The notes: generated by a model from the letters alone, not told the origin. DNA of 6,788 nucleotides from a bacterium (GCA_025774865.1 JALGZO010000550.1:1-6788), one strand, 5' to 3'; positions 785 through 6,788 are shown, numbered from the stretch's first letter. Numbers and translations are program-made.

Positions 785-2892
785 CCTCCCTCGACGAGAT
801 AGGCGTCCTGGAACTCCTCGGACTCGTACAGGAAGAACTGGACCTTGCTCCGGTAGGCCCAGTCCGTGTGAAGGAACCCCTCGCCGGCCGAGCCGATCGG
901 CAGGCCGTAGCGCGCGGTGGCGTTGATGACCCACTCTGGTGCGTTCGGTAGCGAGTTGCCGTTGATGGACACGACGCTCGAGCCCGTTTCGATCGGGGGA
1001 TCCAGGACGGTCAGACTGTCGGCGTTGCCCGGAACGGTTCCGAGATTGGGATCGTCGATCTCCGTCTTGTTGTAGCTCAGCCCCGCGGTCAGAAGTAACT
1101 GAGGCGTGGCCAGGTACTCCAGGTCCGCTTCGAAACCCGCACCCGTGGTCTTGTCCGCGTTGAGCAGAGTATTGACGTTCGTGGCCCCGCCCACGGCCGT
1201 GAGCTGCTGATCATCCATCGTGTAGTAGAAGACGCTGACATTGGTGCGGGCGCGACTACCCATGAGGTTGGTCTTCACCCCGATCTCGTACGAGAGAATC
1301 TTCTCGGTGTTGGCGACCGAGACCGTGTCCGAGTTGGCGAGGAAGAGGGAGTCGGCGAACAGGAGCCGCCCCTGAATACTCGGGGCCCGGAAGCCCTTCG
1401 CCACCCGGCCGTAGACGTTGACGTCCTCGTTGGCCGCGTAGAGAGCGCTCACGTCCCAGCTCACCTCCGAGTCGCTGGGGTTTCGAGTGACTTCCGGGAG
1501 TGGGCCGACTCCCCCCAGGAAACCGGGGAGTGGGTCCTGGGTCCGCTCCGCACTGAACTTCTTCTCGTCGTCCGAGTAGCGGACGCCGCCCGAAAGACGA
1601 AGCTGGCTCGTGGCGTCGAAGTCCACAGTCCCGAAGAGAGCCCATGCGTTCGTTTCTTGCTTCTGGGTGGCGAAGCCGTTCTGGGGCGACCCCGGGACGG
1701 TGGTGTCGTAGCTGAAACTCTCGATGTTGAGGTCCTCCCAGAAGTAGAAGAACCCGGCCTGGAAGTTGGTCTTGACCCAGCCGTTGCTGGCGACGCGGAT
1801 CTCCTGGGTGAACTGATCCATGTCCGGGATGGCATCCGCCGTTTCCGAAGCGAACGCGACGGGTCCATTCGGACCGGAAGGAGGAGTGAAGGCGCCCCCG
1901 AAGCCGCCATCGATGTCGCCCCGGCTGAAGATCTCGGCGCTCTCGTAGCCGGTGACGGAAGTCAGCGTGACGGGCTCGAACTCGTAATCGAGCTTCGCGA
2001 CGCCGCCGATCGTCTTCACCTCCTGGCTGTTCGCTGCGTCATGAAAGACCTTCTCGCGGTCGAAGCCGTCTCTGATCTCGTCGGTGCCCGATTTGATCAT
2101 GTTCCCCTGGAACACGCGCGCCGTGCCGTCCAGGTCGCGACCGTGCACGTTGAGGAGCGCACTGAACTCGTTGCCCGGCGTGAGAAGCAACTGCGCCCGC
2201 CCCGCGAACTCCTGATAACCTTCCAGCTCGTTGTCCTTCCCGGTGAACGAGTTGTCCACCCAGTCGCTGCGACCCTGGTACAGGATGGACGCTCGCCCGG
2301 CGACCACGTCCTTCGAGAGCGGCCCCCCGACCGCGCCTTCGAACTGGGTCTGGTTGTACCGGCCCCAGGAGAGACGTCCGAAGCCTTCGGTCTCGTAGGT
2401 CGGCTTTCTGGATTCGAACTTCACGATGCCGGCGGGAGTGTTGCGCCCGAACAGGGTCCCCTGCGGCCCGCGGAGCACCTCGATCCGGTCGAGATCGAAC
2501 GCGGGAAAACCCTTGAGGATCGGGCTCTCCAGGACCACTTCGTCGTAGATCAGAGAGACCGGTTGCGACGCGTTCAAATCGAAGTCGGTGTTGCCGAGCC
2601 CGCGGATGTAGAAGCGGGGGAAAGTGCGCCCGAAGGACGACTCGACGTAGAGGCTCGGAACTCGCGCGGACAGCAGTCGAACATCCGCGCCGGCGGCGGT
2701 CATTGCGTCGAGATCCTCGTCGCGGAGTGTCTCCACCGACGAAGGCACGTCCCGCACGTCCTGCTCGCGCTTCTGCGCGGTGACGATGACCTCTTCCAGA
2801 GTCTCCGGGGGTCCGCTTTGTGCGTACGCGGCGACGCTCATCGTGAGGGTCAGGAGCAGGGTGCTCGAACTGACCCGCCATATCCGTCTCAT
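748..2892 (-). CDS. TonB-dependent receptor, 3' end disrupted by frameshift or small deletion
   Basis: The open frame has 714 codons. The ATG at 2892-2890 has AGGA nine bases upstream (2905-2902). Residues 1-24 are a Sec signal peptide cleaved after AYA. The TonB box is EEVIVTAQKR at 33-42. The plug domain covers about 45-165, with FYIRGLG (94-100) and the signature IEVLRGPQGTLFGRNTPAG (137-155). The rest is a porin-like barrel with repeated alternating strands, such as LRLSGGVRYSDDEKKFS and VYGRVAKGFRAPS. The wider family imports siderophores, vitamin B12, sugars and other ligands; the substrate here is not identifiable. After VEGG (residue 703) the frame leaves the family pattern and ends in 11 unrelated residues (SPERAESTSTT). 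The true C-terminus lies in another frame at 784-692, and an expected strand segment of about 25 residues appears absent. As encoded, the protein lacks the last strands and terminal Phe, so correct outer-membrane assembly is doubtful. It is probably transcribed separately from the upstream molybdoenzyme gene. Confidence 0.88.
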   Translation of the reverse strand: MRRIWRVSSSTLLLTLTMSVAAYAQSGPPETLEEVIVTAQKREQDVRDVPSSVETLRDEDLDAMTAAGADVRLLSARVPSLYVESSFGRTFPRFYIRGLGNTDFDLNASQPVSLIYDEVVLESPILKGFPAFDLDRIEVLRGPQGTLFGRNTPAGIVKFESRKPTYETEGFGRLSWGRYNQTQFEGAVGGPLSKDVVAGRASILYQGRSDWVDNSFTGKDNELEGYQEFAGRAQLLLTPGNEFSALLNVHGRDLDGTARVFQGNMIKSGTDEIRDGFDREKVFHDAANSQEVKTIGGVAKLDYEFEPVTLTSVTGYESAEIFSRGDIDGGFGGAFTPPSGPNGPVAFASETADAIPDMDQFTQEIRVASNGWVKTNFQAGFFYFWEDLNIESFSYDTTVPGSPQNGFATQKQETNAWALFGTVDFDATSQLRLSGGVRYSDDEKKFSAERTQDPLPGFLGGVGPLPEVTRNPSDSEVSWDVSALYAANEDVNVYGRVAKGFRAPSIQGRLLFADSLFLANSDTVSVANTEKILSYEIGVKTNLMGSRARTNVSVFYYTMDDQQLTAVGGATNVNTLLNADKTTGAGFEADLEYLATPQLLLTAGLSYNKTEIDDPNLGTVPGNADSLTVLDPPIETGSSVVSINGNSLPNAPEWVINATARYGLPIGSAGEGFLHTDWAYRSKVQFFLYESEEFQDAYLVEGGSPERAESTSTT
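778..790. repeat. Short perfect inverted repeat GGGAG-AGC-CTCCC at the receptor breakpoint
   Basis: Five-base arms with a 3-base loop lie exactly where the receptor frame is lost (codon 703, 786-784). Such hairpins can promote replication slippage and deletions and can also cause sequencing or assembly errors. The coincidence is seen directly; the causal link is inference. Confidence 0.45.
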
Positions 2893-2951
2893 TTGTTCTC
2901 ATCCTGTGAGAGGTGTCAGCGATCGGGCCTACTCGCCCTCGTCCGCGCGTC

Positions 2952-2979
2952 AGCCTAGCAGGCCTTCGGGGCCGGTCAA
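2952..2979 (-). promoter_or_regulatory. Candidate sigma-70-type promoter of the receptor gene at 748-2892
   Basis: On the minus strand a -35-like TTGACC (2979-2974) is followed after 16 bases by a -10-like TAGGCT (2957-2952), which keeps the key T, A and final T of TATAAT. Transcription would start near 2945 and leave a leader of about 50 bases before the ATG at 2892. The spacer contains the dyad GGCC-N5-GGCC (2961-2973). The match is modest and the genome is GC-rich, so this is a candidate only. Confidence 0.35.
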
Positions 2980-3048
2980 CGGCATTGACGCCGATGGTCG
3001 GGGGCGCGGTGGCCGCCGCCGGCCTCTTCCTCGACAACCTGTTGATGA

Positions 3049-3074
3049 GGAGTGGCTTAGAGCCGAGCCGCTCC
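3049..3074 (-). terminator. Imperfect hairpin just after the molybdoenzyme stop codon, weak terminator candidate
   Basis: In minus-strand reading, GGAGCGGCT (3074-3066) can pair with AGCCACTCC (3057-3049) around an 8-base loop, with one C-A mismatch. It begins 7 bases past the TAG at 3083-3081, where an operon terminator is expected. There is no clear U-tract after it, so it may only mark the transcript end or act with Rho. Confidence 0.3.
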
Positions 3075-3080
3075 GTGCCG

Positions 3081-5321
3081 CTAAACACCCCGGCGGCGCA
3101 TGTCCCGCCGCCGGGCCTTCCGGACCGACACCCTGACTTGCAGGCCCGTGGGCGAGCCGACCCCGGGCACGAGCTCGCTCGAGGTCACGAGGTGCGCGAG
3201 CCCCTCGGGCTCCTTCTGCGTCGAGCTTCCCCCTTGAAGGTCCGAGAGAAAACCGAAGTGTTCGGGGAGGAAGACGACTCCAGGGATCACGCGGTCGGTC
3301 GCCCACAAGCGGGCCGTGACGGCCCCGACTTCCGATTCGACCGTGATCCAGTCACCATCGGCGAATCCGAGAGCGCTGGCGTCGCCCGGATGCATCTCGA
3401 GTTTCGCGACCGGCGCCTCGTAATGCAGCTCGGACGCGCGACCGGTACGGACACGCGATCGGAGATGCTCACGCAGAGGACCCGTCACCAGGAGAAGCGC
3501 GTCGTCGTCAGCCATCTGACCGACGAGTGGGGTGGGCACGAAGACAGGGGACGCAGCGCTCGACGCGTCGATCCGCGCGGTTCCGGGTTCGTCCTCGCCC
3601 GCGCACGGCCACGGTACATCGAGCTCCTGGCTCAAGCGGAAGGGGGGGATTCCATCTGCGTCGAACGGCGTCCCCTGCGCGAGGCCCCGCCAACGGTCCC
3701 ACTCGGTCGGTACATCCGAGAAGGAGCGCGCCATTGAATCGGCATCGAGAACGGTTCGGGCGAGCTCGACGAGGATCTGTTCCGCCGGTTTCGCCACCCC
3801 GGGAGGCGTCGCTTCCGCTTGCAGGCTCTGACAGCGACGGTCGAGCGTCATCATCGTTCCCGACGACTCTCCGGACACGAGCGCGAGTGGCAGCACGACG
3901 TCGGCGAACACCGTGGTCTCCGTGGGAACGTGGGTCGAGGAAGCGACGGTGAACGCCTGCGTAAGCGCCCGTCTCCAGGCTCCCGCGTCCGGCATCTCCG
4001 CCGCGAGGTTCGTGCGGAGGACGAGCATCGCCCCGAGCGTCTCGTTCTCGATCGCGGCCGGCCACTCGAGAAGCGGGAGGCCGGGGCGCTCGGGCAGGCC
4101 GCTCGGCTCGGTTCCCCAGGCGGCGGCCGTCTTGTCGCGTTCCGTTGGCTCCGTCAGTCGCCCGCCCGCCGGAAGTCGTCCGGGCCGGATTCCAAGGGCG
4201 ACAGCGCCCGTCGCGTTCGCGCCGCGGGGGAGGAACAGACACGTCCGTCCGGGTCCGCCCCACTGACCCGTGGCGTGGTGCAACTGGGCGACGGCCCGCG
4301 CGAGCGCGGCGCCGGAGGCAGCGCCCAGCGCCGTCGGACCGACGAGAGTCACGATGTTTCTCGCCTCGCGCCAGGTGTGAGCGACGGCTTCGACGTCGCG
4401 AGCCCCCAGACCACCGGCCCGCACGGCCGCGGCGATCGTCGCTCGCTCCGTCCGCAGCCACGCCCGCCAATCCTCGGAGGCCGGATCATCTGACGGGCTT
4501 GCGAGCTCCGCCGCCAGCGAGTTGACCACGGCGAGCTCGTGGCCCGGCTTGACGCGCAGGTGCAGGTCCGCGACGGCCGCGGCGACCGTCCTTCGCGAAT
4601 CGAGAAGAACGACTCTCGCGCGCCCGGTTCGCCGCGCATCGAGCACACGGTAGTAGAGACCGGGATGGCTCTCGGCGACGTCACCGCCGACGAGGAGAAT
4701 CAAACCCGCGGCATCCACGTCTTCCACGGACCCCGGGTTCGCTTCCGTTCCGAACACTTGCCGGCAAGCGTCGTACGCGTGCAGAGCGTCGAGTCGCGCC
4801 GGGGTATCCAGGTGATCGGTGCCCAGGCCGGCGCGGGCGAGGCGAGCCAGCAAGGAATACGTCTCGCAGGTCTCTCCGTCCGAAGAGGCGATCGCCACCC
4901 CTCCGGGTCCGTGCCGCTCGTGCGTCGATCGAAGTCCGTTCGCCACCGCCGCCCAAGCCTCCTCCCACGACACGGGCTCGAGTCCGTTCAACGTCCCCTT
5001 CGTGGAACGGTCGCGCCGAAGGAGCGGCTCGATCGCGCGATCCTCGGTCGTCGCCGCCTCGACGATCGCTCGCGCGCGGGGACAAAGGCGTCCGAAGCCC
5101 GTTCGCGATTGCACGATCCCCTTGACGTCCACCGGACGTCCTTCCCGCGTGCGGATGAAGACCGGCTCCCCGAGTCCGCAGAGATCACACACCGAGCGAG
5201 TCCAGCGCTCCACATCGGCGCCTTCCGGCTCGGCGCCGAGGGAGCGGGACAGGAGCCCCGAGAGCGGAAGCGCGAGAGCGCAGCGGCCGCACTGCCCCAA
5301 GAAGCGTCGCCGGCTGATCAT
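3081..5321 (-). CDS. Tat-exported periplasmic molybdopterin (bis-MGD) oxidoreductase, NapA/NasA-like
   Basis: 746 residues, slightly shorter than typical NapA. The N-terminus carries a twin-arginine signal (SRRRFLG, 3-9; likely cleavage near SLGA, 27-30), so it is exported folded with cofactors. An N-terminal Fe-S region has C45-x2-C48-x3-E52-x27-C80, where the third Cys of the usual C-x2-C-x3-C-xn-C is Glu; the relay Lys two residues after the last Cys is Arg82. Next come molybdopterin-binding domains: LDTPARLDALHAYDACRQVFG (from 171) and GGDVAESHPGLYYRV (212-226) match NasA/NapA without gaps, placing Asp178 at the molybdenum-ligand Cys. THVPTETTVFADVVLPLALVS (from 463) and GTMMTLDRRCQ are typical core motifs. 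The C-terminal molybdopterin dinucleotide-binding barrel spans about 605-735. The family catalyses two-electron oxo transfer or dehydrogenation; the substrate is unknown. Its ATG overlaps the stop of the upstream seven-haem cytochrome (ATGA), which is the likely redox partner. Confidence 0.9.
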   Translation of the reverse strand: MISRRRFLGQCGRCALALPLSGLLSRSLGAEPEGADVERWTRSVCDLCGLGEPVFIRTREGRPVDVKGIVQSRTGFGRLCPRARAIVEAATTEDRAIEPLLRRDRSTKGTLNGLEPVSWEEAWAAVANGLRSTHERHGPGGVAIASSDGETCETYSLLARLARAGLGTDHLDTPARLDALHAYDACRQVFGTEANPGSVEDVDAAGLILLVGGDVAESHPGLYYRVLDARRTGRARVVLLDSRRTVAAAVADLHLRVKPGHELAVVNSLAAELASPSDDPASEDWRAWLRTERATIAAAVRAGGLGARDVEAVAHTWREARNIVTLVGPTALGAASGAALARAVAQLHHATGQWGGPGRTCLFLPRGANATGAVALGIRPGRLPAGGRLTEPTERDKTAAAWGTEPSGLPERPGLPLLEWPAAIENETLGAMLVLRTNLAAEMPDAGAWRRALTQAFTVASSTHVPTETTVFADVVLPLALVSGESSGTMMTLDRRCQSLQAEATPPGVAKPAEQILVELARTVLDADSMARSFSDVPTEWDRWRGLAQGTPFDADGIPPFRLSQELDVPWPCAGEDEPGTARIDASSAASPVFVPTPLVGQMADDDALLLVTGPLREHLRSRVRTGRASELHYEAPVAKLEMHPGDASALGFADGDWITVESEVGAVTARLWATDRVIPGVVFLPEHFGFLSDLQGGSSTQKEPEGLAHLVTSSELVPGVGSPTGLQVRVSVRKARRRDMRRRGV

Positions 5322-6289
5322 GGGCGTACCTCCGGAAGGCCCTGGCTCGTCGTGGAAGGTGGGCGCCGACGCACTTCGCCCGTCATTCCCAGCGGGGTCC
5401 AGTGCCGGATCAACGGATTGCTGTGTTCCAGACGATAGCGAGCATTTCGCTCACTGTGACAGGTGGCGCAGCGTTGAGCGAGATAGTCGATCGTCTCGGG
5501 GGCCAGGCGGTCCGGGTCGTCTTCGTGTCGCGCAACCGTGACGCTCGGGTCATGCAGCGTGACCGGGTCGTTCCGGAAGTCGCCCGTCTCGAGAAGAACG
5601 GCCGATTCGGGAGCGTGGCAGTACGCGCAATCCGCCGCGCGCAGCGTGCCTTCCGGATCTGGAGGATGCTCGGCCAGCACGAGCCCCATGCGTGAGCCTG
5701 GAAACCCCTGCACGTGGTCGGAGTCGAGATGACATCCGATGCAGACCGAGATCGCTCCCGCCAGGCCGCGGTCAGTCGCGTGCGCCTCGTGGCACGATAC
5801 GCATCGCATGCCCGGAGCGTTCTCTGGACCGTGCTTGGAGGTCAGAAACTCCTCCACTTGCTGAGCGTGGCAAAGGAGGCACCGGTCAGGGCCGGGCTGG
5901 GGTACGAACGTCGCTTCGTGCGTGCCGTGACAGCTGGCGCACAAGACTCCGGCCCGGGCGTGGAGACTCTCCTGCCAGTCCGTGACCGCGAACGAGGTCT
6001 GGCTGACCGAGTGACAGCTCAAGCAGCGGGATCGGTACGTCGGGCCCTGATCGGAAGCCCAAGCGTCGCCGACGGGAAGGGCTCGCGTCAGTTGTCCGGG
6101 GGGCAGGTCCATCTGCTTGTATTCCTCGGATTGACCCGGGACGGTCGGTGGCGTCACGGCCGCCGCGGTCATCGGATCGATCGAACGGTCCCGTTCGGGC
6201 AGGGAGGGAGCATCGCTCTGGCAGGCTGCGACGAGAACGGCGAGGGTCGCGAACCATGCGAACCCCCGGCCTCGCGCATCGCTACTCAT
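5318..6289 (-). CDS. Seven-haem c-type cytochrome lipoprotein
   Basis: 323 residues. The N-terminus is a lipoprotein signal: hydrophobic stretch FAWFATLAVLV, then VAAC with the lipidated Cys at 23, followed by Gln-Ser, which in proteobacterial rules favours the outer membrane. Residues 24-85 form a Ser/Pro/Asp-rich linker. Seven CxxCH haem-binding motifs follow, with first Cys at 89, 117, 137, 163, 183, 221 and 274. Further His residues that could be distal ligands include 110, 124, 153, 170, 192, 208, 246, 255, 289 and 296. The layout recalls multihaem cytochromes with bis-His haems and faintly HAO-like ones, but I cannot assign a named family. The start at 6289 is supported by the lipobox and by GGAG six bases upstream. 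It overlaps the preceding cytochrome gene by 8 bases and the following molybdoenzyme gene by 4. The likely role is electron transfer between the c554-type cytochrome and the molybdoenzyme, or between membrane and periplasm. Confidence 0.87.
   Translation of the reverse strand: MSSDARGRGFAWFATLAVLVAACQSDAPSLPERDRSIDPMTAAAVTPPTVPGQSEEYKQMDLPPGQLTRALPVGDAWASDQGPTYRSRCLSCHSVSQTSFAVTDWQESLHARAGVLCASCHGTHEATFVPQPGPDRCLLCHAQQVEEFLTSKHGPENAPGMRCVSCHEAHATDRGLAGAISVCIGCHLDSDHVQGFPGSRMGLVLAEHPPDPEGTLRAADCAYCHAPESAVLLETGDFRNDPVTLHDPSVTVARHEDDPDRLAPETIDYLAQRCATCHSERNARYRLEHSNPLIRHWTPLGMTGEVRRRPPSTTSQGLPEVRP
5329..5333 (-). promoter_or_regulatory. Ribosome binding site GGAGG of the molybdoenzyme gene
   Basis: GGAGG lies seven bases before the ATG at 5321-5319 and inside the last codons of the seven-haem cytochrome gene. 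It fixes the start choice and, together with the ATGA stop-start overlap, suggests translational coupling. Confidence 0.75.
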
Positions 6290-6788
6290 CGTTCGCTCCG
6301 ATCACCACGTCGGACCTCTCCCTCTCCAGGATTCCCGGCCCCACGTCGCGGTGGCGTCGAGGATGGTGACATCCGACGCAGACGTTCATCGCTCCGGCGT
6401 CCCCGGGCACGGTTCTCCGACTCACCGCCTCACGGGCCAGCCGCGACGAATGATCGAGAAGCGCCCGGGCCCGGGTCTCCTCGCCCCGCCCGAGCAGCTC
6501 CTGCCCCACGAACATCATCTCGTCGTAACGCTCGCCCGGCCCGTGGCACCCCTCGCACGTGACGCCAGGCTCGGCGTAGGTTCCGGTCGCGGGATCCCAT
6601 CCGGTCGTGTGGCAGGGGAAACAGGGCTTCGGATCGTCGACGTCCACGAGGCGCTCGATGCTCCGCGACTTCGTCGCGAGCCAGCGTCGAGAGTGCTCTC
6701 GATGCTGGACCTCGTGGCAACCGAGACACTTCTGGGACCCGACGTAGCGAAGCGGCCGGCCGCGGGCCGAGAAGATCCACGGGTCGAT
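6282..6788 (-). CDS. Cytochrome c554-like four-haem c-type cytochrome (partial, C-terminal 168 residues)
   Basis: The frame is open from the right window edge to the TAG at 6284-6282, so the start and any signal peptide lie outside; an internal GTG at 6647 is not the start. The 168 visible residues hold four CxxCH motifs, CLGCH, CFPCH, CEGCH and CVGCH, with first Cys at 21, 56, 78 and 137 of the fragment. The lead-in RYVGSQKCLGCHE, the CHTTGWDP stretch and CEGCHGPGERY are hallmarks of the cytochrome c554 family, first known as the electron acceptor of hydroxylamine oxidoreductase but widespread as a domain of periplasmic electron carriers. The C-terminus is charged (ILERERSDVVIGANDE) with no membrane segment. 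More haems or another domain may lie upstream. The gene overlaps the next by 8 bases, so both are probably on one transcript. An electron-carrier role in the same chain is inference from context. Confidence 0.85.
   Translation of the reverse strand: MDPWIFSARGRPLRYVGSQKCLGCHEVQHREHSRRWLATKSRSIERLVDVDDPKPCFPCHTTGWDPATGTYAEPGVTCEGCHGPGERYDEMMFVGQELLGRGEETRARALLDHSSRLAREAVSRRTVPGDAGAMNVCVGCHHPRRHRDVGPGILERERSDVVIGANDE
6296..6299 (-). promoter_or_regulatory. Ribosome binding site GGAG of the seven-haem cytochrome gene
   Basis: GGAG sits six bases before the ATG at 6289-6287, within the 3' end of the c554-like gene whose stop (6284-6282) lies beyond the ATG. This supports the chosen start and coupling of the two cytochrome genes. 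Confidence 0.65.

Follow-up and report, generated by a model that had tools for sequence, protein, structure and literature searches.

A molybdoenzyme-like protein and two multihaem cytochromes probably encoded in the 3′ half of a b6-type Rieske/cytochrome b operon

We found that three overlapping genes in a 6,788-nucleotide stretch of bacterial DNA (the whole of which we call the window) probably make up the 3′ half of a longer operon, one that encodes a b6-type Rieske/cytochrome b complex of the kind with multihaem c and an NAD(P) oxidoreductase. The three genes encode a c554-type cytochrome, a heptahaem lipoprotein, and an exported molybdoenzyme-like protein. The quinol-oxidising Rieske/cytochrome b module is known, as in anammox bacteria; what is new is that it has its own unusual molybdoenzyme-like partner. 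The original prediction had seen in the trio an undescribed periplasmic respiratory chain: the chain of multihaem proteins and a molybdoenzyme with odd residues stands, but its quinol side is a complex of a known kind.

The window makes up all of contig C554, from a genome bin of 785 contigs, and all three genes lie on its minus strand. The 3′ part of the c554 gene (6282..6788; 168 amino acids, four CxxCH motifs, Pfam match Cytochrome_C554) overlaps by 8 bases (6282-6289) the lipoprotein gene (5318..6289; 323 amino acids), whose product has a lipobox (...LAVLVAAC, with Cys23 at 6221-6223), seven CxxCH motifs, and Pfam matches to Cytochrom_c3_2/C7. This gene in turn overlaps by 4 bases (5318-5321) that of the Tat-exported MopB protein (3081..5321; 746 amino acids, start MISRRRFLGQ), which is matched by the Pfam families Molybdopterin (122 bits), Molydop_binding (76 bits), and Molybdop_Fe4S4 (24 bits). 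Coordinates and Pfam matches agree with the overlapping trio as it was originally described. The right-hand end of the window is the contig end and falls inside the c554 gene, leaving its 5′ end open. The four haems that had been ascribed to this cytochrome are present in the fragment but are a minimum, since the gene is truncated there and its intact relative (P0004; 549 amino acids) has six CxxCH motifs. The partner genes are absent from the window because the contig stops inside this gene.

A search for relatives gave one close match, G002:C18 (which is JALGZR010000080.1; locus L018), from a genome in the same family but a different genus. There the operon is whole, the trio being contiguous with the Rieske/cytochrome b genes: genes that touch or overlap, with families assigned by Pfam, encode a GltD-like protein, a Rieske protein, cytochrome b6, subunit IV, the hexahaem c554, the heptahaem lipoprotein, and the molybdoprotein. 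In the window's own genome the same genes are split between two contigs that leave a gap. On contig C732 (4330 bases) lie the GltD-like, Rieske, cytochrome b, and subunit IV genes and residues 1-191 of a c554, after which the contig ends; its gene products are 55-77% identical to those of G002. The c554 fragment of the window resumes at about residue 386 and matches the hexahaem P0004 (residues 386-549) with 78% identity. The GC contents are alike (0.675 for C732 and 0.668 for the window contig), the contig ends have no terminal overlap, and the approximately 190 c554 codons between them were found in no contig. We infer from synteny with this one relative that C732 and the window, both from a bin rated 8.3% contaminated, belong to one operon.

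Downstream of the molybdoprotein gene, on the same strand, the window holds a TonB-dependent receptor with a siderophore-type profile (2892-748) and then the first part of another outer-membrane receptor-like gene, which has a carboxypeptidase regulatory domain (502-2). Since the 3′ neighbour in G002 is instead an Hmc-like set on the opposite strand, with no receptor genes at that place, we leave the two receptors out of the system. The Hmc-like set (L018:12540-15484) consists of an HmcC-like NrfD protein, an HmcB-like iron-sulfur protein, and a small multihaem cytochrome, and scores below the Hmc cut-offs. The same locus encodes two response-regulator receiver proteins adjoining a histidine kinase (L018:15241-16203 and 16457-17341); the C-terminal halves of both resemble, by eye, glycine-cleavage H-type lipoyl domains.

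The proteins of the upstream half have the features of a b6-type complex. Both Rieske cluster motifs (CTHLGC...CPCHG) are present in the C732 protein, and its G002 counterpart is matched by Pfam Rieske. Cytochrome b (Cytochrome_B, 151 bits) has four helices, His pairs spaced 14 and 15 residues apart, and the Cys of a YCMGG motif, a spacing and a Cys that we take to be b6-type features. Subunit IV, the petD-like C-terminal part, is a gene of its own; its Pfam match is weak (18.8 bits), but the ExtQ and cytb6_f_IV profiles match it. P0004 begins with a hydrophobic stretch (a membrane anchor) followed by a coiled coil, and its N-terminal part resembles the 7-8-haem proteins that adjoin other Rieske/cytochrome b genes. 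We propose that this c554-type cytochrome stands in for cytochrome f/c1 as a subunit of the complex. The NAD(P) oxidoreductase is GltD/NfnA-like, with Fer4_20 and FAD/NAD domains and two 4Fe-4S clusters, and its gene in the window's own genome lies on C732. In G002 the GltD-like gene is preceded by two more (L018:1210-2337 and 2376-3539), for a porin-like protein with one CxxCH motif and for a protein with a transglutaminase domain and a haem-like CCKCH motif; the porin-like protein has no relative in the window's genome.

The trio keeps its order in G002, with 62-78% identity and dN/dS of 0.13-0.25 (rough values, dS being high at about 1). Because order, identity, and constraint are all kept in a second genome, the arrangement goes beyond chance. 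Gene by gene, the dN/dS figures between the two genomes, rough for the same reason, are 0.13 for the C-terminal part of c554, 0.25 for the lipoprotein, about 0.24 for the molybdoprotein (66% identical to P0016 of L018), 0.19 and 0.24 for the cytochrome b parts, 0.35 for the Rieske protein, and 0.39 for the GltD-like protein. By this comparison all seven operon genes are constrained (0.13-0.39), and the molybdoprotein is under purifying selection. All seven CxxCH motifs and the lipobox Cys of the lipoprotein are kept in G002; the +2 residue is Gln in the window and Gly in G002. By the rule established in enterobacteria, a lipoprotein whose +2 residue is not Asp is sorted to the outer membrane, and since neither residue is Asp the heptahaem lipoprotein may be located there.

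In an alignment of the molybdoprotein with Nap, Nas, Fdh, and NuoG proteins its N-terminal cluster motif reads C45-x2-C48-x3-E52-x27-C80, followed by R82 (5082..5189, minus strand). Glu52 replaces the third cluster Cys, which is Cys throughout the aligned proteins, the fourth Cys is kept, and Arg82 occupies the position of the CxKG Lys. Asp178 (4788..4790, minus strand) stands where the alignment places the Mo/W-ligand Cys/Sec (FdhH residue 140). All three residues are kept in the G002 relative, so that the exchanges of Cys for Asp and for Glu bear out the unusual active-site residues noted originally. Also changed are the positions of R581 and Q335 of FdhH, which are conserved in catalytic homologues; the MGD-binding C-terminal domain, R366 (Arg333 of FdhH), H219/P220, and R243 are kept. 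An AlphaFold2 model from five sequences has a pLDDT of 50, too poor to bear on the fold or the cofactor. To judge from the residues present, Asp178 could be a Mo ligand as in NarG, and with three Cys and a Glu the cluster could be a high-potential [3Fe-4S] or be ligated by the Glu. A high-potential [3Fe-4S] cluster is reported for ActB and IdrA (PMC10100899), and a putative one in the molybdoprotein would fit a high-potential chain. Alternatively, with the Mo ligand, one cluster Cys, the CxKG Lys, and several residues of catalytic homologues lost, the protein may be redox-inert.

The best full-length matches of the molybdoprotein are NapA, NasA, and FdhA, at 25-30% identity overall, and we compared its profile scores with the family cut-offs. 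Formate dehydrogenase alpha (TIGR01591) gives 235.5 bits against a cut-off of 666.25, with Asp at FdhH position 140; NapA gives 165.6 against 930.55 and 168.6 against 904 (NCBIfam), with Asp178 and Glu52 instead of Cys; and NasC gives 207 against 1100. The NarG/DMSO reductase type II lineage (TIGR03479) scores 36 bits against 984.75, with no match to narG; NuoG/Nqo3 scores 95.3 against 470, and QrcB 85.9 against 440. Nor is it an ortholog of the Nap-like enzymes in loci L144 and L147 (only 66-86 bits), which group with NapA. In two trees the molybdoprotein and its relative form a fully supported long branch outside Nap/Nas and Fdh/NuoG (1.93 and 1.57 changes per site). By sequence, then, it is a separate MopB lineage outside all curated families, a claim that we limit to these words because the branch is long and its neighbours differ between the two runs. 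The original statement that no known set fits is correct in that no curated Nap, Nar, Dms, Psr, or Fdh family suits this protein.

The exact trio is rare. We found it in two of 386 genomes (approximately 250 families), both in one small family and together two of the five genomes of their phylum, which is not the recurrence across several phyla that had originally been named as support. Three further phyla, each with 4-8 genomes in the sample, showed no trio at E 1e-68, and a contig scan, which reaches close relatives only, returned the same G002 relative and nothing else. The wider arrangement does recur. We searched for cytochrome b in the 386 genomes and read up to 20 kb around the 69 loci with a matching cytochrome b. 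A molybdoenzyme gene lies on the same strand in seven of 25 loci with a GltD-like gene, compared with four of 44 Rieske/cytochrome b loci without one; these counts come from a modest sample in which contigs frequently stop early, and "adjacent" does not mean "in complex". The seven GltD-bearing loci with an exported molybdoenzyme (L135, L137, L141, L142, L143, L144, and L147) come from G102, G147, G351, G046, and three genomes of a single family, G028, G175, and G313; the four without a GltD-like gene are L066, L096, L099, and L101. Together these loci are spread over several unrelated families. All seven have the gene order of the window operon: GltD-like, Rieske, cytochrome b, multihaem c, molybdoenzyme.

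The enzymes in these loci are heterogeneous. P0020 is Nxr A-like (952 bits to anammox Nxr A, 7b04), as is P0022, judged by a similar family profile; P0019 is of the Nar/DMSO-reductase-II type; P0017 and P0018 fall in a NapA-sister group in the tree; and P0021, from the loci without a GltD-like gene, is ethylbenzene-dehydrogenase-like. Since the seven loci share their order but carry different kinds of enzyme, the version in the window is, as far as gene order indicates, one case of a recurrent Rieske/cytochrome b, multihaem c, and molybdoenzyme arrangement in which the enzyme is swapped.

In Rieske/cytochrome b chemistry, quinol is oxidised near the periplasm and its electrons are split between the Rieske and the cytochrome b paths (PMC12954380). 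From the gene content, order, conservation, and motifs observed, we infer the direction and path of the electrons, the contacts between the proteins, and any redox activity of the molybdoprotein, which most likely exchanges electrons with the Rieske branch as its partner in the periplasm. Menaquinol would be oxidised at the periplasm-side quinol site, and one electron would pass from the Rieske [2Fe-2S] cluster to the membrane-anchored hexahaem c554, in the place of cytochrome f, then to the heptahaem lipoprotein, the molybdoenzyme-like protein, and a high-potential acceptor, for which an oxyanion (for example nitrate, chlorate, or selenate) would be our first guess. The other electron would cross through cytochrome b to the cytoplasmic side and there reduce quinone (Q-cycle) or reach the GltD-like FAD/FeS protein, which would reduce NAD(P)+, a path proposed for anammox complexes (PMC12954380).

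It is quite possible, if short of probable, that the molybdoprotein is instead a cofactor-free scaffold, like NuoG/Nqo3, ActB, or FhcB, that organises the complex or relays electrons, with the terminal acceptor elsewhere, for example at the outer membrane via the lipoprotein and a porin. Mo-free MopB members are known in respiratory complexes (PMC10100899), and the loss of the Mo-ligand Cys, the third cluster Cys, and the CxKG Lys points the same way; however, the Asp in the ligand place is itself a possible ligand, the cofactor-binding domain and residues listed above are retained, and the protein has a Tat signal, as do proteins that fold with their cofactor. Of 92 columns conserved in catalytic Nap, Nas, and Fdh proteins it keeps 56, on a par with the cofactor-free NuoG of S. 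meliloti (58; 43 in another cofactor-free NuoG), yet two divergent homologues with all the usual ligands keep still fewer (49-50). An outer-membrane route would suit the +2 residue of the lipoprotein and the upstream porin-like gene of G002, a gene that lacks a counterpart in the window's genome.

Electron flow might also run in reverse, as in lithotrophy, with electrons taken from a periplasmic substrate by the molybdoprotein and pushed uphill through the haem chain and the Rieske/cytochrome b module to quinone or NAD(P)+. The Nxr-like enzymes of the surveyed loci, which oxidise nitrite, and the GltD-like NAD(P) oxidoreductase of the operon are consistent with this, but the window enzyme is not Nxr-like by its narG and DMSO reductase type II results, and known Rieske/cytochrome b systems with Nap or Nar act as quinol oxidases (PMC5317091, PMC4683180, PMC6195509); we regard reverse flow as unlikely. 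Far less credible is a stand-alone periplasmic chain with no membrane quinol dehydrogenase and the lipoprotein in that role, which is what the original prediction had favoured on finding no other partner gene within the 6.8-kb window. The contig stops inside c554, and the Rieske protein, cytochrome b, and subunit IV, together with the NAD(P) oxidoreductase, are encoded directly upstream in G002 and on C732 (to c554 residue 191); the G002 operon refutes the strong form.

Beyond the assignment to a Rieske/cytochrome b operon, we put forward a more specific reading, speculative and as a whole rather doubtful. The molybdoprotein would found a new MopB family of Nap/Fdh-like descent, in which Asp became the Mo ligand independently and three Cys and a Glu hold a high-potential cluster, and it would be a constant subunit of a Rieske/cytochrome b-NAD(P) oxidoreductase complex that bifurcates electrons. 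Complexes of this sort would have taken up exported molybdoenzymes time and again, as a downhill partner whose reaction could cover the cost of reducing NAD(P)+. One anammox complex of this kind lacks a proposed favourable partner reaction (PMC12954380), and the related operons in several families, with an exported molybdoenzyme in the partner position, offer a testable candidate for the driver. This recurrence in other families is a more interesting result than the window's own version. The window molybdoprotein would show an altered ligand set on a molybdoenzyme scaffold, whether as a new active site or as a further loss of cofactor within a respiratory complex.

Within the open-licence literature we found no description of a GltD-Rieske/cytochrome b-multihaem-molybdoenzyme operon. 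The closest systems are the anammox Rieske/cytochrome b complexes of Kuenenia with an NAD(P) oxidoreductase, Kustd1480-1485 and Kuste4569-4574 (PMC12954380). Compared by description, they share with the window operon a b6-like cytochrome b, subunit IV, a Rieske protein, a hexa- or octahaem c replacing cytochrome f, and the NAD(P) oxidoreductase. In contrast to the window operon, no molybdoenzyme and no separate heptahaem lipoprotein are described for them (PMC12954380), and Kuste4569-4574 has an HAO-like octahaem protein in the molybdoenzyme's stead. The Geobacter ext cluster (ExtO Rieske, ExtP cytochrome b, ExtQ, multihaem ExtM/N/S, and porin ExtI; PMC5877670) provides the best curated family for cytochrome b (265.1 bits) and subunit IV (56.1 bits), but both fall below the NCBIfam cut-offs for ExtP and ExtQ (290 and 150). 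It resembles the operon in its Rieske/cytochrome b genes and multihaem lipoprotein, and shares a porin with G002, but by the published gene list it is without a molybdoenzyme or a GltD-like gene (PMC5877670).

On the enzyme side, NapA, NasA, and FdhA share the fold family of the molybdoprotein, which lacks their ligand Cys and third cluster Cys. Rieske/cytochrome b genes are found in the Nap cluster of Caldithrix abyssi (PMC5317091) and in haloarchaeal nar clusters (PMC4683180), and C. jejuni requires its Qcr to reduce nitrate and TMAO via Nap and Tor (PMC6195509). As proposed for the window, a Rieske/cytochrome b complex in these organisms supplies an exported molybdoenzyme from the quinol side, in place of NapC/NapB-type routes. 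Their enzymes, however, are true NapA or NarG, whereas that of the window is a MopB protein outside the curated families, with Asp and Glu replacements.
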